A stretch of DNA of 31,477 nucleotides, from IMG/VR virus record IMGVR_UViG_3300033273_000114, positions 1 through 31,477 of that record; one strand, given 5' to 3'. Below are positions 6,812 through 20,459 of the stretch, piece after piece (position 1 is the first letter of the stretch; every line of letters starts with the position of its first letter). This DNA is from a virus. The position numbers and the translations under genes are program-made. The notes beneath the pieces were generated by a model. It searched no databases. It was not told the DNA's origin and saw only the letters and a program-made list of their open reading frames with translations.

Positions 6812-8758
6812 TTACCCTAAAGAACTTGTGTTCTGTATGTTTCTATCAAGTTCGGATGCCTCTTTAATGTCTTTATGTACTACAAATGCTCTAAGTGGTT
6901 TCTCTTGTTGTGCTGAAACAGATTGTGCTAATTGTGACTCAGGTGAAGCACCTACTACATTAAAGTCTGGAGCTTCAACTCCTCCTCCTCCGCCACCGCC
7001 TCCCATAGAGGGAGCCCCTAAGCTAGATAATGCCGTTTGAGCTTTCTTTCTAGCTGCCAGGATTGATGCTATAAGTCCTCCAATAGTAATCGCATATGTA
7101 GCTATACCTACAGGACCTAATTGTCTAACAAATTCACCTAATGAGAATTGAGCATCAGCAACAGATTCTACAGAGTTTGCAATTATTCTAACTTGAGCAT
7201 TTTCAAATATCCTTTTTCTTTCATCAAAATCAGCCTTGATTTTCATTATCTCTTCAGCTATAAGTAACGATTGTTTTATAGTGAATAAATCTCTCTCTGC
7301 CTTTATCTTTCTCTCTTGGGCTTTTATCTCTCTTCTTTCAATATCGGCTAAGGCCTCTCTCTGAGCATCCCCAGTTAATTTACCGGAATGAAGCGCATAA
7401 TCCCTCTCTCTTTTTAATGCATCCATTCTAGCATCGTGATATGATAGTATTACGTCAGATACATATTTAAGAGATTGCTGTGTAGCCTTAAACAATTCAG
7501 TGACTTGTTTTGCTTGGTCTTTTATAAATTTAAGACCATCTTTTAGGTTCTCTTGATTTAGTTGTTGAGCCTTGTTGAATTCGTCACCTAATCTGTTTAA
7601 TTCCTCAACACCTTCCTTCGCACTATCATAAACAGGTTTATATATGTTCTGAACCCTCTCTAATCCCTTAACAAGTATTTCTTGACCATATTTATTTACA
7701 TCTAAAAAGAAATCTTTGAGCTCACTATCAAATTCAAGTATCTTCTGTCTTATTCTTTTACTTGATTTAGCTCTACCACCTTTTGGGTCTTTAAATAATT
7801 CATCTAATAAATCCTCTTCACCAATAATTTTTATTAATGCCTTTAATTGATCCCTTAGATCTTTTCTTTCCTCCTCAAATCTTTCTCTTACCGCTTCTTT
7901 ATTTCTCTGTATTACTGTTTCAGTGGCCTCAATAATACCAGACACCCCACCTTGTAATGCTTGATTTATCTGTTGTATTCTTTGAGCTTCTATTTGACTT
8001 CTTTTATCTTCTTCAGCTTGTAATGCAACTTGCTCATTAACTTCACTCTTCAATAATTCAGTGTAAATCTCCTCTATTTGTTTCTGAGCTGCCGTGGCTT
8101 TAGCTAATCGTTCTAGAGATTTTATCTTTAAATCTATCTGTCTTCTAGATTCTGCTGTTAACTGTCCATTTTCATCAAGAGATATATTTAAATCTTTATA
8201 TTCTGCGTTAGCCTTAGTTACGGCTCTTTGTAATTCTTCAGTTGAAACCGTATTGTCATCAACAGTCTCTAATAATATTTTTAAGTTTGATCCCGCTGCT
8301 GCTGATGCTATGCCTATCTTATCAACCTCATCAGTAGCTTTAGATGTACTACCTGCAAAATAATCTAATGCTGCAATTGCGGCTTGAAAAATAACTATAA
8401 ATCCTAAGGGACCTTTAAATGCATTTAACAAAGCCGTCATACCCTTTTGGAACCCTCCGGTAGTGGCTATTAAGGTAGTCATCAAGGTGGATAATTGAGA
8501 CAAGTTATTCGCAACACCTCGAATACCATAAGGCATATCTGATATGGTTCTACCAAGTTCAACGAGCGTTGCACCCGCTAAACCAGTCTTGTCAATCATT
8601 GGGTTAAGGCCGTCTTGCGTAGTCTTTTGTAGACTTTTATTTAAACTCTTTACGGCGTTGTCAGCCTGTACAAAACCCTTTGTTAACCCCTCTATCTTTA
8701 CCTTACCTTTGTCATTTATCTCAATGACATAAGTCAGTTTGTTTTTCTTTTCAGCCAT
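6812..8758 (-). CDS. Tail tape measure protein
   Basis: A 648-residue protein, long and mainly helical, with 'VELGRTISDMPYGIRGVANNLSQLS' near residues 67-92 and hydrophobic segments around 104-135, the hallmark of tape measure proteins in Bacteroidota phages. A long coiled-coil core (Lys/Glu/Gln-rich, about 190-520), a second hydrophobic region near 540-590, a run of eight Gly and a short basic C-terminus follow. The length would correspond to a tail of roughly 100 nm if the usual rise per residue holds. It sets tail length and is ejected with the DNA. The 47-residue gene before it overlaps its start. Confidence 0.85.
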   Translation of the reverse strand: MAEKKNKLTYVIEINDKGKVKIEGLTKGFVQADNAVKSLNKSLQKTTQDGLNPMIDKTGLAGATLVELGRTISDMPYGIRGVANNLSQLSTLMTTLIATTGGFQKGMTALLNAFKGPLGFIVIFQAAIAALDYFAGSTSKATDEVDKIGIASAAAGSNLKILLETVDDNTVSTEELQRAVTKANAEYKDLNISLDENGQLTAESRRQIDLKIKSLERLAKATAAQKQIEEIYTELLKSEVNEQVALQAEEDKRSQIEAQRIQQINQALQGGVSGIIEATETVIQRNKEAVRERFEEERKDLRDQLKALIKIIGEEDLLDELFKDPKGGRAKSSKRIRQKILEFDSELKDFFLDVNKYGQEILVKGLERVQNIYKPVYDSAKEGVEELNRLGDEFNKAQQLNQENLKDGLKFIKDQAKQVTELFKATQQSLKYVSDVILSYHDARMDALKRERDYALHSGKLTGDAQREALADIERREIKAQERKIKAERDLFTIKQSLLIAEEIMKIKADFDERKRIFENAQVRIIANSVESVADAQFSLGEFVRQLGPVGIATYAITIGGLIASILAARKKAQTALSSLGAPSMGGGGGGGGVEAPDFNVVGASPESQLAQSVSAQQEKPLRAFVVHKDIKEASELDRNIQNTSSLG

Positions 8759-8894
8759 TTACTCTTCTTTTAACGGATTGTTTTAACTCTTTTAACGTCT
8801 CGGGTGCTTTATACTTGCCCTTGGCTATATCTATAATAGGATCAACTCCAAAGAAGTCATCAGCCTTTAATAAGTCAACTATCTCTCTAATCAT
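8751..8894 (-). CDS. Small helical protein between tail tip and tape measure genes (47 aa)
   Basis: The ATG at 8894 overlaps the TGA of the 752-residue tail gene (ATGA), and the gene runs eight bases into the tape measure gene, which supports real translation. The 47-residue product starts MIREIVDLLKADDFFGVDPI and is mixed-charge and helical with a basic C-terminus. No membrane segment and no known domain. Its place suggests a small tail assembly factor. Confidence 0.6.
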   Translation of the reverse strand: MIREIVDLLKADDFFGVDPIIDIAKGKYKAPETLKELKQSVKRRVNG

Positions 8895-11149
8895 TGTACT
8901 ATCTCGTTTGAAAATATATTTAACAACTCTATTTCAGACTCTCCAGTCATTAGGTTTGTTGTTATTGAATTAATCCTAAAAATCTTATCTTGTATTTTTA
9001 CTTGGTCATTAAGTCTATAATTAACTACAATATTTGTAGGTAATAATGCTCTAATCTTAAACATTCTCTTGAGTGGGTTGAATACACTTTCCACATAAGA
9101 CTTGTAAAATACATTATATAGAGAATTACTGTCAGCCCCATAGTTAACCGATTGCCATTCATTAACCTCTTGGTCAAAATTCAAAGAATATGAAGGTGCG
9201 GTTGTGGTATTACCGGTTTCATTACTATTTGAGGGTCTCCAGTAACTTGTTAGTCCTGTAGGTGGCGAAGTAGATATCCAATTTATCTTACCTCCTCTAC
9301 CTGAGTTAGCATTACTCGCTTCTGGCAAATCAGTTTCTCTTATAGCATAGAATAGTAAAGGAGCTATCATCATTGTGTCGTAATCTCCCGTATTTTCACT
9401 AATATTAGCATCAAATTCACCACCGGCACAATATCCCCACTGAATTAAGGTGCTCGTAGTTGCATTTGGACCTAGATTAACACCTAAATCAACTAGTCTT
9501 TCATATTTCATATGCGAGAATGGTAATGATATTTCATATTTATTACCTCTATCGATATCGGGGAAGTTTCTTCTTACGTTAAATTCAGAATCACCAAACA
9601 CTTCATTAAATTCCTCAAAGTGATGCTCCATAAGAACAGTATTCGTCTCTTGATATTTAAACTCTATATCCGTAAATGGTAGCACTGAGTTTACCGTATG
9701 CTGAGTTACGTCAAAATACTTATCTAAATCTATAAGGCCGCCCAGATTATTATTTACGGCATCAGCATAATAATTATCTAAAGTATCTATATATACCTTG
9801 CCGTATTCAGGGTCTCTTCTATCATCTATAAAATATGCCGTTAGATTGAACATTTTAAACAGACCGGTTAGAAAGTCTATAACTTTCATTTTAGGGAATC
9901 GGTCTAATATTATTATCTCACTAGTGGTGGTTTGTCCTGCCGAGCCGGTTGCTGTATAATTGTAAGTTGTTTGTTGACCAGAGATAGAACTTGTAAAAGT
10001 AATATCTAAATCCGCAGCAGTTATTGTAAATTCACTCTCTGATTGTATTTCAATCTCTATTGTAATGTCCCCCTTGTTATAATCGGAATCGTTTAAATCA
10101 AAATCAAAAACAGAATCACCTAACCCACTCTCCACTCTTTCATTTCCTCTAGTCTTGTCTCTAAATACAACCTTATATGGAACACCTTGATTAGATACTG
10201 TCAAGTCTAGCGATAAGTTGTGGTAGCCAAATACGCTACTTAAACTAATATCACTGCCATCAAATTCAGCACTTGCTAAAGGAGTTCCTGTGGTTGTATA
10301 GCCAGTTAATTTGTGTGAGAATAGATATCCTTCGCCATCATCCAAGTCGTTAAATTCACCTTTCTTGCTATTAACCCAAAGATATAGATTATCGAATGCA
10401 TCAGATCCAAAAAAGTCTCTAGTGAATTCAAGATTGTATTGATTCTCTATAGCTTCAATAATATGAATCGATCTTATGGCGGGTTTTAAATCAGTGTATT
10501 CTAATCCTCTTGTTGTATCTCCGTTAGGGGTATTTGGAGTCCCAACAATTTCGTCGTGATATAAATTACCGGATGAATTATAAAAATCAACAGGAACTGG
10601 ATCGTCAGAATTAAAGAACAATCTTTTTTTAGACGTTATTAATGGGTATATAATTGAGTTGGTTTGACTGTTTAAATTTAGTCCATTAGTAAATCCATCT
10701 CTAACATTAGCCTCGCTGTATTCGTGATCATAATTACTCAGATAAGTTAAGTCTGTCAATTCATCATCTCCAATCAAATCCCTTAATGAAACCGTATTCC
10801 CATAAAATATAATCTCATAAGAAAAGGCTTTGTTATTCTTCATATTTACACTGTTTAGGTATATTTTACCCTCCCTAAACGGTGTACTATTTATATGTAA
10901 TATTGCTTTCCTCTTTTTCCTAGAATCAAAAGCATTCCCAGTGATATTGTAGTTATAGAAATGTCTAAATATCTTGTTGTTTGTGTCTGATGCAGGTACT
11001 GAAAATGTCTGAGAATAGTCAGTGAATACTTTGCCGATATCTCTAATGTCCTGTATAGATGAAGTTAGTTGTACTGTTTCATCATCAAACAAGTCTACAA
11101 GTGGATAGTTACCATCATTATCCTCAATATACAACTGAAGTTTCTGCAT
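8891..11149 (-). CDS. Tail tip / baseplate protein (752 aa)
   Basis: A 752-residue protein rich in beta strands. Its N-terminal 150 residues ('FTDYSQTFSVPASDTNNKIF', 'HINSTPFREGKIYLNSVN', 'YEIIFYGNTVSLRDLIGDDEL') are a pattern I know from tail proteins next to tape measure genes in flavobacterial phages. The middle is Thr/Asp-rich and the C-terminus has another compact domain ending 'MTGESEIELLNIFSNEIV'. Such proteins form the tail hub or tip that docks the receptor-binding parts. It shares one base with the 357-residue gene before it. No enzymatic motif seen. Confidence 0.65.
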   Translation of the reverse strand: MQKLQLYIEDNDGNYPLVDLFDDETVQLTSSIQDIRDIGKVFTDYSQTFSVPASDTNNKIFRHFYNYNITGNAFDSRKKRKAILHINSTPFREGKIYLNSVNMKNNKAFSYEIIFYGNTVSLRDLIGDDELTDLTYLSNYDHEYSEANVRDGFTNGLNLNSQTNSIIYPLITSKKRLFFNSDDPVPVDFYNSSGNLYHDEIVGTPNTPNGDTTRGLEYTDLKPAIRSIHIIEAIENQYNLEFTRDFFGSDAFDNLYLWVNSKKGEFNDLDDGEGYLFSHKLTGYTTTGTPLASAEFDGSDISLSSVFGYHNLSLDLTVSNQGVPYKVVFRDKTRGNERVESGLGDSVFDFDLNDSDYNKGDITIEIEIQSESEFTITAADLDITFTSSISGQQTTYNYTATGSAGQTTTSEIIILDRFPKMKVIDFLTGLFKMFNLTAYFIDDRRDPEYGKVYIDTLDNYYADAVNNNLGGLIDLDKYFDVTQHTVNSVLPFTDIEFKYQETNTVLMEHHFEEFNEVFGDSEFNVRRNFPDIDRGNKYEISLPFSHMKYERLVDLGVNLGPNATTSTLIQWGYCAGGEFDANISENTGDYDTMMIAPLLFYAIRETDLPEASNANSGRGGKINWISTSPPTGLTSYWRPSNSNETGNTTTAPSYSLNFDQEVNEWQSVNYGADSNSLYNVFYKSYVESVFNPLKRMFKIRALLPTNIVVNYRLNDQVKIQDKIFRINSITTNLMTGESEIELLNIFSNEIVQ

Positions 11150-16126: not shown

Positions 16127-16157
16127 TTTTTATTTCCAATCTACTTTATTATATTTG
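16127..16157 (+). promoter_or_regulatory. Plus-strand Bacteroidota promoter (TTTT-N19-TATATTTG)
   Basis: TTTT at 16127-16130 and TATATTTG at 16150-16157 are spaced by exactly 19 bases, one base from the host primary sigma consensus. It points rightward, against every protein gene. Transcription would start near 16162-16165, at a perfect inverted repeat. Confidence 0.65.
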
Positions 16158-16160
16158 TAA

Positions 16161-16240
16161 TAACAATGTCTGTTTCATTGTTAAATAGTTTTATGTTATT
16201 TGTTCAAGCCTCCTGTTTTAGCTCTTTCAGGGGGCTTTTT
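16161..16240 (+). ncRNA. Candidate plus-strand small RNA of about 75-80 nt
   Basis: Downstream of the rightward promoter lies a perfect 8-bp hairpin (TAACAATG, seven-base loop, CATTGTTA; 16161-16183), a 22-base AT-rich linker, then a terminator hairpin ending in U5 at 16240. Only a 31-codon frame (16166-16261) fits inside, and it reads through the terminator, so a non-coding RNA is more likely. Because the first hairpin overlaps the expected start site it may instead be an operator in the DNA. It is not antisense to any gene in the window. I do not recognise an RNA family; the flavo-1 class is one to compare. Confidence 0.5.
16206..16240 (+). terminator. Rho-independent terminator on the plus strand
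   Basis: AAGCCUCCUG (16206-16215) pairs with CAGGGGGCUU (16228-16237) over ten positions including one G-U, with a 12-base loop, and is followed by UUU. There is no rightward gene upstream, so it must end a short non-coding transcript. Confidence 0.8.
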
Positions 16241-16253
16241 CAATACCCTTTGA

Positions 16254-16351
16254 TTTTTTAAAACCTAATACCTCGACTACCACTATCTTCATTTTACGTT
16301 GAATTTTTAAAACCGCATACCTCACCACCCGATACATTCATTTTACGCCGT
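16254..16351. repeat. Two imperfect 49-bp direct repeats
   Basis: Units 16254-16302 and 16303-16351 share TTTTTAAAACC, then ATACCTC, ACC and TCATTTTACG at the same spacing. They are adjacent and non-coding. The region 15960-16493 as a whole holds no gene; these repeats, the small RNA unit and the hairpins are all I can see in it. Confidence 0.7.
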
Positions 16352-16493: not shown

Positions 16494-16532
16494 AAAAAAA
16501 CCGCCTCAAATATTTAACTATTTAAAGGCGGT
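16494..16532 (-). terminator. Strong terminator closing the small-protein cassette
   Basis: On the minus strand ACCGCCU...AGGCGGU forms a 7-bp GC-rich stem extended inward by UAUUU/AAAUA, and it is followed by seven U. It lies 28 bases after the last small gene (stop at 16561) and isolates the cassette from the structural genes. Confidence 0.9.
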
Positions 16533-16560
16533 CAAAACAAACAAACGAAAAAAAGTGTCT

Positions 16561-16695
16561 TTATTCTTTATTTAAAATGTTGTCATAATTTTCAAAAGAT
16601 ATATTTTTACTAAAGTTTATTTGGTTAGATAGAAAGTACTTGTTATCTAGTTCAACTAAATAAAAAGGTTGATTAAGTTTTTTAATATACTTCAT
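16561..16695 (-). CDS. Small hypothetical protein, last of the cassette (44 aa)
   Basis: Its ATG overlaps the TGA of the zinc-ribbon gene (ATGA), and its TAA lies just before the cassette terminator. The 44-residue product starts MKYIKKLNQPFYLVELDNKY, is rich in Asn, Lys and aromatic residues and has no membrane segment or Cys. No family recognised. Confidence 0.6.
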   Translation of the reverse strand: MKYIKKLNQPFYLVELDNKYFLSNQINFSKNISFENYDNILNKE

Positions 16696-16829
16696 TCTGT
16701 TTTATTTTTTATTTCGGGTAGTCCGTATTCATTTAAAGCTATACTCATATCTAAATAAAAACCGCAATAGGAGCACAAAAAATTGTCCGGTTCATTTTCT
16801 TTATTACAACAGCTACAAATTTTATTCAT
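16692..16829 (-). CDS. Small zinc-ribbon-like protein (45 aa)
   Basis: A 45-residue protein with CSCC near residues 5-8 and CSYC at 19-22, two knuckles of a compact zinc ribbon, followed by an acidic tail. It overlaps the genes on both sides (eight bases before, four after), which argues for real translation. Small zinc ribbons in phages often bind host proteins or nucleic acid. Function unknown. Confidence 0.65.
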   Translation of the reverse strand: MNKICSCCNKENEPDNFLCSYCGFYLDMSIALNEYGLPEIKNKTE

Positions 16830-16944
16830 TTTCTTTTGTTTTATATATTGATACTATTTGCTCATCTGTTGAATTGTCTATATAATAAGTATGTTTGTCA
16901 ATTGTTATGTATAAACTTTTTTCGGTTCTTATATCTATTTTCAT
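16822..16944 (-). CDS. Small hypothetical protein (40 aa)
   Basis: A 40-residue protein starting MKIDIRTEKSLYITIDKH. It alternates hydrophobic and polar residues like a small beta hairpin sheet, has no Cys and ends in Lys/Glu. It starts one base after the stop of the gene before it and overlaps the zinc-ribbon gene. No family recognised. Confidence 0.55.
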   Translation of the reverse strand: MKIDIRTEKSLYITIDKHTYYIDNSTDEQIVSIYKTKENE

Positions 16945-16945
16945 T

Positions 16946-17071
16946 TTAGTATTTATTTAAGGTTCCAAATTTATTATATCTATTATCCTGGGACAAAAAT
17001 ATTTTTTCTTTATTCCTTTGTTCCTTTTCTCTTAGTTGCTGTATTAATTCTTTGTCTATTATTATATTCAT
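16946..17071 (-). CDS. Small charged helical protein (41 aa)
   Basis: A 41-residue protein. Residues 5-24 are a Lys/Glu/Gln-rich amphipathic helix ('DKELIQQLREKEQRNKEK'), the rest is Asn/Tyr-rich. It starts four bases after the stop of the GP88-like gene and ends one base before the next start. No family recognised. Confidence 0.55.
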   Translation of the reverse strand: MNIIIDKELIQQLREKEQRNKEKIFLSQDNRYNKFGTLNKY

Positions 17072-17075
17072 TTTA

Positions 17076-17828
17076 TTAAAGTTTTATCAGTTGTTTTTTT
17101 CTTTGTTCTATCGGGGCCGTTACTACAAAACCGGTAGTATCTTTTTTAGCCTCACCTTTTGCCCGGAGCCCGAACACAACATTTTTATTGTAGATCATTA
17201 CTAGGTCACTGGTATCACCGTCAATAACTTTAAAGCCCCGCCAATATTGTGGGAGCTCCCCGGCAAAAACTATTGAAACGTTTGCACCCTGGTTAAGTGC
17301 GGTTAAAGTTTGGCTTTCATTATCTTCGGCCCTAGAAAAAGTTAGATAGTAATTAATATGGTCTTTATACTTTTTTACTTTGCCTAGTATTTTTGTATAA
17401 TCGTAAAAAATAGCGGTAGGATATAGATCCGCAATATCTAAAGAAGCGTATTTTTTTAGCAAATAAACAAAGTCCTGGTCACTGGTCCCGTTTAAACGAA
17501 ACGCAATTTTCTCTCCTATCTTTTCAGCTTTTGCCGTTTCTCTTATTATTTCACTTGCAAGCTGTTTAATAAATAAACTTTTATTATAAATAAAATAGTT
17601 TGTTTTATTTATCCTGGAGCTCTGTACATTTGAAAATTTACCCCGCCCCGCTGTAAATAGACAAGCGGCCGCACAGCCCTTTGAAGCCATTGGACAAATA
17701 TTTATTTTCTTTTCGTTTTGGTTGTATGGTGCCAAATAAAGGATAAAAGTTTTTAAATTATTTTTTTTTGTTTTGGCGTTTGTTATCCCTGGACTCAATA
17801 GTTTTTTTGGTATTGTATACTTTTTCAT
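17076..17828 (-). CDS. GP88 / DUF7227-like protein with a C-x6-C-x3-C motif
   Basis: A 250-residue protein. Residues 44-63 hold 'CPMASKGCAAACLFTAGRG' with Cys45, Cys52 and Cys56. Further conserved-looking blocks are 'RLNGTSD' (111-117), 'FYDYTK' (141-146), 'YLTFSRAEDN' (161-170), 'VIDGDTSD' (201-208) and 'GLRAKGEAKKDTTGFV' (220-235). I recognise this arrangement from a widespread phage family (gene product 88 or DUF7227) whose activity I do not know. The three cysteines could hold a metal or Fe-S cluster and the alternating strands suggest a barrel; both are inferences. It overlaps the WYL_2-type gene by four bases. The gene uses more CCC/CCG/GGG codons than its neighbours. Confidence 0.7.
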   Translation of the reverse strand: MKKYTIPKKLLSPGITNAKTKKNNLKTFILYLAPYNQNEKKINICPMASKGCAAACLFTAGRGKFSNVQSSRINKTNYFIYNKSLFIKQLASEIIRETAKAEKIGEKIAFRLNGTSDQDFVYLLKKYASLDIADLYPTAIFYDYTKILGKVKKYKDHINYYLTFSRAEDNESQTLTALNQGANVSIVFAGELPQYWRGFKVIDGDTSDLVMIYNKNVVFGLRAKGEAKKDTTGFVVTAPIEQRKKQLIKL

Positions 17829-18169
17829 TTTAAGATAGTTTTATTTAATTCCTTAATATTTTCAATACTTTGATCAATTACGAGATCACTAACCCAATAT
17901 TTAACGCCGGATATTTGCACCCACACAACAGTTGAAAGGTTAATGAACCTTTTAGCCTTGTTAATATCATCAACCTTTTTTAATAGCTGCAAATCAACAA
18001 CCGGGAGCAAATTTTTAGCAATAGGATCAAAAGATAGTCCTATACCTTTATCACCTTTTTTTACCCCGGTGCGGGCGTTTATTATTCTAGTTGATCCGTC
18101 TTTTTTAATAAATTTAGCGGTGAAAATTTTTCCACTAGTCATATCATTAAGTAAATTTTTGTAAGTCAT
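17825..18169 (-). CDS. WYL_2 (DUF2693)-type SH3-fold protein
   Basis: A 114-residue protein. Residues 13-42 ('SGKIFTAKFIKKDGSTRIINAR', then 'TGVKKGDKGIG') match the phage family annotated as WYL_2, Sm-like SH3 beta-barrel, followed by the expected 'LLPVVDLQ' and 'RFINLSTVVWVQISG' strands. Such proteins may bind nucleic acid or nucleotide ligands, but no member that I know has a proven role. It has its own ATG after a gap of 27 bases from the membrane microprotein and overlaps the GP88-like gene (ATGA). Confidence 0.65.
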   Translation of the reverse strand: MTYKNLLNDMTSGKIFTAKFIKKDGSTRIINARTGVKKGDKGIGLSFDPIAKNLLPVVDLQLLKKVDDINKAKRFINLSTVVWVQISGVKYWVSDLVIDQSIENIKELNKTILK

Positions 18170-18196
18170 TTTGATAAAGTTTAAAATAGTTAATAA

Positions 18197-18334
18197 TTAA
18201 AGGCCCCACGAAGCGGAAGAAAAACCGCCTTGAATGATGCCGTGGTAAAGTGCCAAAGCCAATAAGGCTAAGATAGGTAAAGCAATTAAAATCTTTGTTG
18301 CTTTGTCTAAAAAAGAAATAAATTTTGTTTCCAT
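18197..18334 (-). CDS. Single-pass membrane microprotein, first gene of the cassette (45 aa)
   Basis: A 45-residue protein starting METKFISFLDKATK, with one hydrophobic segment (about residues 14-32, 'ILIALPILALLALALYHG') and a short Gly/Ser C-terminus. It begins about 27 bases after the -7 element of a host-type promoter, so it is likely the first and best-translated gene of the cassette. I chose this frame over a competing longer one because of the clean membrane segment and start position. Candidate roles include membrane-acting host takeover or superinfection exclusion. Confidence 0.6.
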   Translation of the reverse strand: METKFISFLDKATKILIALPILALLALALYHGIIQGGFSSASWGL

Positions 18335-18360
18335 TGTTTTGATAGTTTTTAAAGTTCATT

Positions 18361-18394
18361 CAAATATACAATAAATTTTTAAGTAATTAACAAA
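18361..18394 (-). promoter_or_regulatory. Host-type promoter of the small-protein cassette
   Basis: Minus strand: TTTG (18394-18391), 22 bases, TATATTTG (18368-18361), matching the Bacteroidota consensus TTTG...TAnnTTTG with a slightly long spacer. It lies just upstream of the ATG at 18334. Confidence 0.65.
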
Positions 18395-18751: not shown

Positions 18752-19249
18752 CTACAAAATTTTATTTCCCTTCGATAAATTTTCTTCTTTCCAAAGTGGT
18801 TGAAGATTTGTGTAGTGACAAAGTTTTTCCATCTCTTCCTTTGTCTTGGCTGAAGATAGAGGTATTATATGATCTATATGCCATTCACCGTGATTCTCCC
18901 AGGTCATTCCTTCAGTGAATTGAGATTCGATATGTTTAAATGCTGTTTCATAATCAGTGCCAAGCATATCTATATTACCAGAATTTTTAGTCCAATAATT
19001 AGCAGTAAAAGCCACAGATGTTCTTGTTCTTAAATTTTTTTTAAATTTGTAAAGAGGGTCGTTTTTCCTCCTATTCTTACTATAGACTCTACGATATGCA
19101 TTAGTTTTATCTTTATTCTTTTTTCTATATTCAGATGCATATTTATTTTTGCAAATCTTGCATTCGTTACCAACGCCATATTTTTTCCCTTTGTTCTTAT
19201 GAAACTCTTTTAGGGGCTTTATTTCTTTACAGGTATAACATTTTTTCAT
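18752..19249 (-). CDS. HNH endonuclease with N-terminal zinc knuckles
   Basis: Start taken at 19249 (MKKCYTCKEIK), five bases after the TerL stop; an earlier in-frame ATG would overlap TerL by 56 bases. The 165-residue protein has two CxxC pairs (Cys4/7 and Cys30/33), a basic middle (36-75) and an HNH core: Trp123-His-Ile-Asp126-His127 'IIPLSS', then 'CHYTNLQPLW' (Asn148) and 'ENLSKGNK' (Asn157). Free-standing HNH nucleases beside terminase genes can take part in cos cleavage, as in HK97; others are homing nucleases. Here it sits between TerL and an iteron array. Confidence 0.8.
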   Translation of the reverse strand: MKKCYTCKEIKPLKEFHKNKGKKYGVGNECKICKNKYASEYRKKNKDKTNAYRRVYSKNRRKNDPLYKFKKNLRTRTSVAFTANYWTKNSGNIDMLGTDYETAFKHIESQFTEGMTWENHGEWHIDHIIPLSSAKTKEEMEKLCHYTNLQPLWKEENLSKGNKIL

Positions 19250-19253
19250 AACA

Positions 19254-20459
19254 CTATCGTATGACATAACTCCCTTTGTTTGCATTTGCAAGGAAGTATT
19301 GAACTGCATAACGTAGGCTATCCATATGGTGATTCCATTTATCTATTGGCCTTTCATTCCTACTGTGCCATACATAATTATTCAGTTCCTTTATAAGCTC
19401 TAAGGAATCTGGGTCAATAACTAAATCAAAGTCCTGTATCAATGCTATCCCGGTTAGAATACTACCCTGCCTCTTTATTGCAGGTTTTACATTACAATAT
19501 ACTTTGAGCTCCTGGAGCAACCTAGGCTCTGCTGAGTCACAGACAATAAGTTCATCCTGGGCATATCTCCTATTCATTTCCCCTATCTCTTTCGTAGAAA
19601 GTCCAACTTTGCAGTACATTGTCTTTAACCACATTTTCTTACGATCTTTATCAATAGCTACTTTCAGTAGCACCGTAGGGTCTACAGAAAACCCAAAGTC
19701 TTGCCCATATATATAAGGGGCATATTCGTTGAATGGTCCAATAGTCCAACGGGTGAATACAACACCATCAGCTTTATCTAACCAACCACCGAGTATCTGG
19801 TGATTATATTTATCTGGTCTACGTCTACGAATCTCTTCTATCTGCATAAGGAAGGAGTCGGATAGGTGCTCCATATTATCTTTGAACGTAGTGTGAATAT
19901 AAGTGATATTATCCTTCCAACCGTTATGTCCACCATTAACAGCCTTAGCCGCAAAGAACCTTTGATATATCCAGTGCTCCTTAGTCGTAGGGTTTAATAT
20001 AAGGATAACTCTATTGGGTTTATTCTTAGCCCTTACAGACTGATCTATCTTGTCAAAGTCATCTTCATTAATAAGTTCCTCTGCCTCATCCAATACAAAC
20101 GTTGTAATACCTTGTAGGGACTTCAGAGCAGCCGTTTGATTACCTGCTGAGGTCTTGATACCTTTAAAGATAATAGAGCTCCCTGTGGACATATTTAGTA
20201 TCTCATCCTTAGTTATTCTGAAGTGCTCAGAGATACCATACAACTCTATCTTTTCTATAAACTCTGGAATAATAGACGTAGAGGCTGAAGACATAGTGTA
20301 ACGAGTGAACAGTATCTTATGACCTTGTTCCATTGTCAAGAGGGCTAGGAATGCCCCTACAGCAAAAGATTTACCACTACCTCTACCACCGGTTACAACA
20401 AAGTATCGGCTATCATTACCTAGTGCTTGATATTTAGGGTTTAGTTGTGGTACTGACAT
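19254..20459 (-). CDS. terL: Terminase large subunit (PBSX/phage type)
   Basis: A complete 401-residue packaging motor. ATPase part: Walker A GGRGSGKS (24-31), Walker B 'TFVLDEAEE' (120-128, Asp124/Glu125), coupling motif 'ILILNPT' (about 151-157). Nuclease part: 'YGQDFGFSVDPT' (Asp254), 'ELIVCDSAEPR' (Asp308), 'NHHMDSLRYAVQY' (Asp380), the RNase H-like acidic triad. It cuts concatemers and drives DNA into the prohead through the portal. It overlaps a 43-residue gene before it and is followed directly by the HNH gene. Confidence 0.95.
   Translation of the reverse strand: MSVPQLNPKYQALGNDSRYFVVTGGRGSGKSFAVGAFLALLTMEQGHKILFTRYTMSSASTSIIPEFIEKIELYGISEHFRITKDEILNMSTGSSIIFKGIKTSAGNQTAALKSLQGITTFVLDEAEELINEDDFDKIDQSVRAKNKPNRVILILNPTTKEHWIYQRFFAAKAVNGGHNGWKDNITYIHTTFKDNMEHLSDSFLMQIEEIRRRRPDKYNHQILGGWLDKADGVVFTRWTIGPFNEYAPYIYGQDFGFSVDPTVLLKVAIDKDRKKMWLKTMYCKVGLSTKEIGEMNRRYAQDELIVCDSAEPRLLQELKVYCNVKPAIKRQGSILTGIALIQDFDLVIDPDSLELIKELNNYVWHSRNERPIDKWNHHMDSLRYAVQYFLANANKGSYVIR

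Follow-up and report, generated by a model that had tools for sequence, protein, structure and literature searches.

Early takeover regions of phages are known, and so is the GP88 family (PF17338, the mycobacteriophage gene 88 type), to which no function has been assigned. In T7-like phages, the region before the phage RNA polymerase gene is read first by the host polymerase, and the class I early region of these phages encodes small proteins that are read at the start of infection. Small proteins are likewise read at infection start from the Pleft early operon of cluster A mycobacteriophages, according to PMC5712189. Both the T7-like class I region and the Pleft operon carry GP88, as does the locus described here; unlike them, it is a 1.9-kb block set inside the packaging/late gene order and has a terminator of its own. 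The GP88 profile that we built matches LHTSCC gp90 and Kampy gene 87, but our protein is ~31–44% identical to the family's listed members in isolate phages, and its gene lies between the terminase and the late genes instead of at an end of the genome. The radical SAM enzymes offer a further comparison, because spore photoproduct lyase, QueE and lipoyl synthase are among the best structural rows for the two types of GP88, A and B, that occur at this locus. In the GP88 model, as in these enzymes, three cysteines follow the first long barrel strand, where the cluster would sit; in GP88, however, they are spaced CX6CX3C or CX5CX3C rather than CX3CX2C, row identities are at most 15% and Z scores stay below 8.

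Our search of the literature on GP88 and on radical SAM proteins in phages returned no paper on the GP88 family. A toxic-protein lead, LHTSCC gp83 (ribosome co-precipitation; PMC7474061), was set aside, as gp83 is SprT-like and the GP88 member of that phage is gp90, of which a search of that paper's main text gave no mention. The 'gp88' genes in PMC11797047 are other genes of that name, and the 'gp88' in PMC8066314 is an unrelated protein. As far as this literature goes, three points appear to be new: a predicted radical-SAM-like model for both GP88 types, a shared early position of GP88 in unrelated phages and its repeated exact replacement at one locus. A radical-SAM-like early GP88 under repeated allele exchange would give a widespread family its first mechanistic hypothesis, and near-identical phage pairs that differ at GP88 are direct material with which to test it.

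A seven-gene block between packaging and structural genes

The window that we analyzed is the whole of IMG/VR virus record IMGVR_UViG_3300033273_000114 (31,477 bases), and all genes identified in it lie on the minus strand. A preliminary description of this DNA had proposed a self-contained cassette of seven tightly coupled genes that splits the packaging genes from the structural genes, and both points hold. The block consists of seven minus-strand ORFs separated by 27, −4, 4, 1, −8 and −4 nt, with the terminase upstream and neck-like, head-protease and portal genes downstream. We regard the seven ORFs as true genes because all have relatives in other phages and dN/dS values of 0.05–0.44, indicative of purifying selection (23 comparisons, two of which gave no value owing to a stop in the chosen stretch of locus L021 and one of which had a saturated dS). 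The cassette falls within the stretch of lowest G+C content among 296 sliding windows (29.9% versus 35.3%), and a cytosine methylase gene is encoded elsewhere in the window. The upstream flank comprises the terminase large subunit gene and an endonuclease VII-like gene (18752–19309) that overlaps it; the latter is full-length in two of 38 spanning loci, is reduced to the overlap in other relatives and is likely a mobile gene.

The host of the virus is probably a Flavobacteria-like bacterium. We tentatively assign it to the Bacteroidota because of the type of promoter, the translation start contexts and weak DNA matches of the terminase gene, among which a faecal phage and phages of Bacteroides and Riemerella rank highest. 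A scan of a bacterial genome collection found no relative of the terminase.

The first gene of the block, c1 (18197–18334, minus strand, as are all features below unless stated), encodes a 45-amino-acid microprotein with a single transmembrane (TM) segment; most close relatives likewise encode a TM microprotein as the first gene behind the promoter, and its several versions are dissimilar in sequence. It is followed by c2 (17825–18169), a 114-amino-acid WYL_2-type protein (Sm-like SH3 barrel; phrog_2267, E = 1.3e-13). For this gene the name WYL_2 is carried by the homologues, 20 of 33 of which match PF10902 at E up to 0.01 (best 1.9e-10), and not by the window protein itself, which scores 14.9 bits against a Pfam cut-off of 26.7. 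The third gene, c3 (17076–17828), encodes the 250-amino-acid GP88 protein (subfamily A, phrog_1617). Two small proteins come next, c4 (16946–17071; 41 amino acids, dN/dS 0.19–0.31) and c5 (16822–16944; 40 amino acids, dN/dS 0.10 against locus L004). The zinc ribbon named in the preliminary description corresponds to c6 (16692–16829; 45 amino acids, dN/dS 0.07–0.23), which has two CXXC pairs but matches the DZR profile at E = 9e-4, under the Pfam cut-off, and is best called zinc-ribbon-like. The block closes with c7 (16561–16695), a conserved gene for a 44-amino-acid protein. A PADLOC search with all seven proteins gave no match at E up to 1, which is a weak test because the library models the defence proteins of hosts.

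Conservation among related phages

We compared 19 terminase-seeded relatives that reach the first downstream gene. WYL_2 is present in 16 of these loci, and GP88, c7 and the promoter motif are each present in 15; among the 13 relatives with terminase identity of at least 80%, WYL_2, GP88 and c7 occur in all 13 and the promoter motif in ten. A wider set of 38 non-redundant loci has GP88 in 34 and WYL_2 in 30, counts that are biased because part of the set was found with GP88 itself. At the other extreme, locus L054 has just 187 nt between the two anchor genes. No copy of GP88 was detected elsewhere in the records, possibly fragments, of the four terminase-seeded loci that lack it, and a search of 19 whole records with the Pfam model gave exactly one GP88 match in 18 and none in one.

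These counts speak against the view that the block consists of added genes (morons). Such genes should be absent from some close relatives, and we reject that identity because all 13 carry WYL_2, GP88 and c7 in a fixed and syntenic block; an own promoter and terminator, also expected of morons, are present at the level of motif and folding only. The preliminary description had held that a block universal and syntenic in its relatives, and transcribed only with late genes, would count against its reading, and the first half of this picture is what the close relatives present. The block keeps its place and gene order but exchanges its parts, as seen in the exchange of GP88 types described below and in the unlike TM microproteins of the first slot. 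A wide partnership of WYL_2 with GP88 was also considered and set aside as weak, because beyond this phage family just ten of 64 non-redundant loci have WYL_2 close to GP88. In locus L047, a low-complexity stretch (8321–10508; repeated V and C in translation), possibly an assembly artefact, separates the two genes.

Promoter, terminator and translation starts

The host-type promoter attributed to the block is borne out at 18361–18394, 26 nt before the first gene, where the sequence reads TTTG-N22-TATATTTG and the motif is conserved across loci. The Bacteroidota promoter consensus is TAnnTTTG/TTTG, as given in PMC2483708. Of 31 loci, 21 have TTG-N17-23-TAnnTTTG upstream of the first cassette genes, where dinucleotide shuffles predict 2.87, and upstream of terminase ORFs it occurs in 0 of 56; a strict match is missing in three close relatives (L018, L030 and L045). 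A generic E. coli-type scan did not single out the cassette promoter and found 30 promoter-like sites in the region against 28.9 expected. At the other end, the strong intrinsic terminator at 16494–16532 was likewise upheld, with a folding energy of −16.5 kcal/mol (z = −5.46) that none of 200 shuffles equaled.

The starts of translation are also distinctive. All seven cassette genes have an A at position −3 of the start codon, compared with 17 of 39 other genes, and AAA directly precedes ATG in five of seven against three of 39 (Fisher P = 8e-4). Flavobacterium favours an A-rich start context in which A at −3 is a positive determinant, according to PMC6847099. The start contexts of the cassette accordingly resemble those of the host type, a signal to which the general A-richness of the block contributes.

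GP88 as an early gene in other phages

The position of GP88 in isolate phages bears on when the cassette might be expressed. It comes third among the genes of HTVC134P and second in both HTVC309P and CRP-143, in each case ahead of the phage RNA polymerase gene; the GP88-bearing T7-like phages infect Pelagibacter and Roseobacter. It is also gene 2 of Lo5R7ANS, where the stretch examined is without a polymerase gene, and gene 1 of HMO-2011, and in the Limnohabitans phage DC31 it ends a long run of small genes that includes WYL_2. In mycobacteriophage Kampy, GP88 is gene 87 (E = 4.7e-34). RNA-seq of this phage at 5 min shows expression largely confined to genes 82–88, according to PMC4626039, and a table of that paper gives gene 87 an 18.3-fold change from 15 to 30 min (P = 7e-18), which we read as a fall because late genes carry the opposite sign.

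Early, host-driven transcription is our best guess because of these gene positions, the published Kampy data and the conserved promoter. By analogy with its relatives, the cassette is probably expressed early in the present phage too.

Predicted fold of GP88

The GP88-like Cys-cluster protein noticed in the preliminary description is a true family member, scoring 121.8 bits (E = 5e-35) against a PF17338 cut-off of 24.4. The family is widespread among viruses: 265 of 50,697 phage records contain a match, and the viral-contig stretches examined include 505 relatives. A scan of the genome collection with GP88 gave one weak match, in a Paceibacterota metagenome-assembled genome, that the Pfam model did not confirm; the controls were silent too, so absence is not implied.

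An AlphaFold model of the window protein reached a pLDDT of 88.9 and a pTM of 0.87. After structural re-alignment, the best 20 rows of solved structures were all radical SAM enzymes (Z = 7.0–4.8), and the first protein of another kind stood at rank 21 (Z = 4.6). We take these rows to be radical SAM partly from general knowledge of the enzymes. The top row was spore photoproduct lyase (Z = 7.0, 4.7 Å over 176 residues), and others were SuiB, QueE, ChlB, NifB, a viperin-like protein, lysine aminomutase, TigE, LIAS, RlmN and queuine lyase. Type B, modeled only from B sequences, placed lipoyl synthase at ranks 1 and 2 (Z = 6.3 and 6.1), with 12 radical SAM enzymes among its best 20 rows; glycoside hydrolases matched it nearly as well, and its cysteine region was poorly modeled (pLDDT < 50). 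A partial TIM-barrel core with the cluster loop after strand 1 is what a radical SAM enzyme would have; in type A, Z is at most 7.0, and values below 8 may reflect nothing more than a common layout of the barrel.

C45, C52 and C56, placed after the first long strand of the model (26–30), are invariant, and the three cysteines are kept in 54 of 54 type A and 41 of 41 type B sequences, spaced CX6CX3C in 52 of the A sequences and CX5CX3C in the remaining two and in all 41 of B. The polar residues N113, D117, D143, S165 and D205 vary little or not at all and lie at or near strand ends in the model. The canonical CX3CX2C radical SAM motif (PF04055) is absent from all of these A and B sequences. Against Pfam at E up to 1, c3 matched GP88 alone and not the Radical_SAM profile, and against NCBIfam at E up to 0.1 it matched nothing. 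Foldseek against the PDB gave no match under E = 0.09, the weak matches being mostly generic barrels, and a sequence search of solved structures gave nothing meaningful. In a viral structure library at E up to 0.001, the named matches were GP88 and DUF7227, besides 'Gp37/Gp68-like', uncharacterized and unnamed proteins; the first protein named radical SAM stood at rank 50 (E = 1.1).

We call GP88 radical-SAM-like rather than a member of that superfamily because its cysteines depart from CX3CX2C, it matches no radical SAM profile and Z stays below 8. On the strength of the models, a radical-SAM-like fold is likely; that the protein is catalytic as an enzyme of this kind we would put at even odds.

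Repeated exchange of GP88

The GP88 slot is occupied either by type A or by type B (phrog_1392), and the latter is also above the PF17338 cut-off (132.6 bits). Eight of the 13 close relatives have A and five have B. The two types share ~22% identity over 158 aligned columns and are linked by profile comparison with 95% probability (E = 2e-8), the A profile having been built without B rows to avoid circularity. Mapped on a 63-row terminase tree, the occupant changes between A and B nine times, at least eight of which are forced by well-supported branches. Loci L006 (A) and L032 (B) encode identical terminase proteins and are 91–97% identical in DNA up to the start of GP88 and again from its stop, with nothing alignable between; L008 and L031 show the same exact replacement within flanks that are 97–98% identical. 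GP88 has been swapped repeatedly for a distant homologue, as if in an arms race with the host. Repeated exchange of this kind among near-identical phages is more usual for host-facing parts. Loci L189 and L212 represent two GP88-B genes on one 129.5-kb contig.

Possible roles of the block

The reading that we favour, with a probability of roughly 0.58, is a conserved cassette for early host takeover or counter-defence that the host RNA polymerase transcribes and that is built around an exchangeable radical-SAM-like GP88. In a family of Bacteroidota phages, the host polymerase would read the cassette from its own promoter and stop at its own terminator, so that GP88 would be made at the start of infection. 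It would then most likely modify a nucleic acid, nucleotide or protein of the host (or of the incoming phage), and in this way gain control of the cell or stop a defence from acting. Further parts that interact with the host would be the TM microprotein and the tiny proteins, and WYL_2 may act as an adaptor or regulator with a small SH3 barrel. That the purpose is takeover or counter-defence seems reasonably probable, and we favour it because diverged alleles are exchanged rapidly, because GP88 is absent in some relatives and because of the TM and tiny proteins that accompany it. The early host control or anti-defence role of the preliminary description stands in part: the conserved promoter, host-type starts, early GP88 elsewhere and repeated exchange support it indirectly, but no cassette protein matched a defence-related family in the PADLOC search.

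The structural comparisons would also suit an early enzyme that serves the phage itself, acting on its DNA, RNA or nucleotide pool, in a cassette for early metabolism. Several of the structural neighbours of GP88 act on nucleic acids or nucleotides, the nearest structures are spore photoproduct lyase and QueE for type A and lipoyl synthase, TYW1 and queuine lyase for type B, and the window also encodes the cytosine methylase; we nevertheless think this rather unlikely, given how often A and B replace each other in near-identical phages and that some relatives have no detectable GP88. If instead the cysteines held zinc or a cluster of purely structural function and the barrel had no catalytic activity, GP88 could act by binding and sequestering a factor of the host. 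The non-canonical spacing, the low Z of the type A rows and the low model confidence around the type B cysteines would fit, yet the near-invariant polar residues sit at or near strand ends, as those of an active site would, and on balance we consider such a binder unlikely. Least probable is an accessory, moron-like cassette expressed independently of lytic growth, for instance by lysogens to exclude superinfecting phages: its own promoter and terminator, the TM microprotein and the low G+C content agree with it, but the block occupies one position in all 13 close relatives, the genome collection holds no detected terminase relative and no integrase was found among the window proteins scanned (a subset of ORFs).

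Returning to the takeover or counter-defence cassette, a more far-reaching and quite tentative version of it is that GP88 is a virus-restricted, divergent radical SAM lineage, serving as a first-line early weapon of unrelated phages of Bacteroidota, Alphaproteobacteria and Actinobacteria. Two anciently diverged alleles would be exchanged at one locus as hosts counter each, and the protein would modify a conserved host molecule (such as tRNA, rRNA or a nucleotide signal), disabling defence or redirecting the cell.

The non-coding region behind the terminator

The cassette terminator is followed by a conserved non-coding region of 530 nt. On the plus strand, 16150–16240 contains a candidate small RNA of ~80 nt, in which a TAnnTTTG element precedes, by ~48 nt, a G+C hairpin and a T run. 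Rfam gave nothing above the gathering score, this candidate included. The same pattern recurs in 17 of 50 distinct regions scanned, including 12 of the 13 close relatives (terminase identity at least 80%), and the stems differ between relatives yet stay paired. Adjacent to it, 16250–16350 contains two imperfect direct repeats (around ACGTAAAATGAA...GAGGTAT..GGTTTTA..AAATC, minus strand) that are kept in nine sequences and possibly mark a regulatory or origin region.
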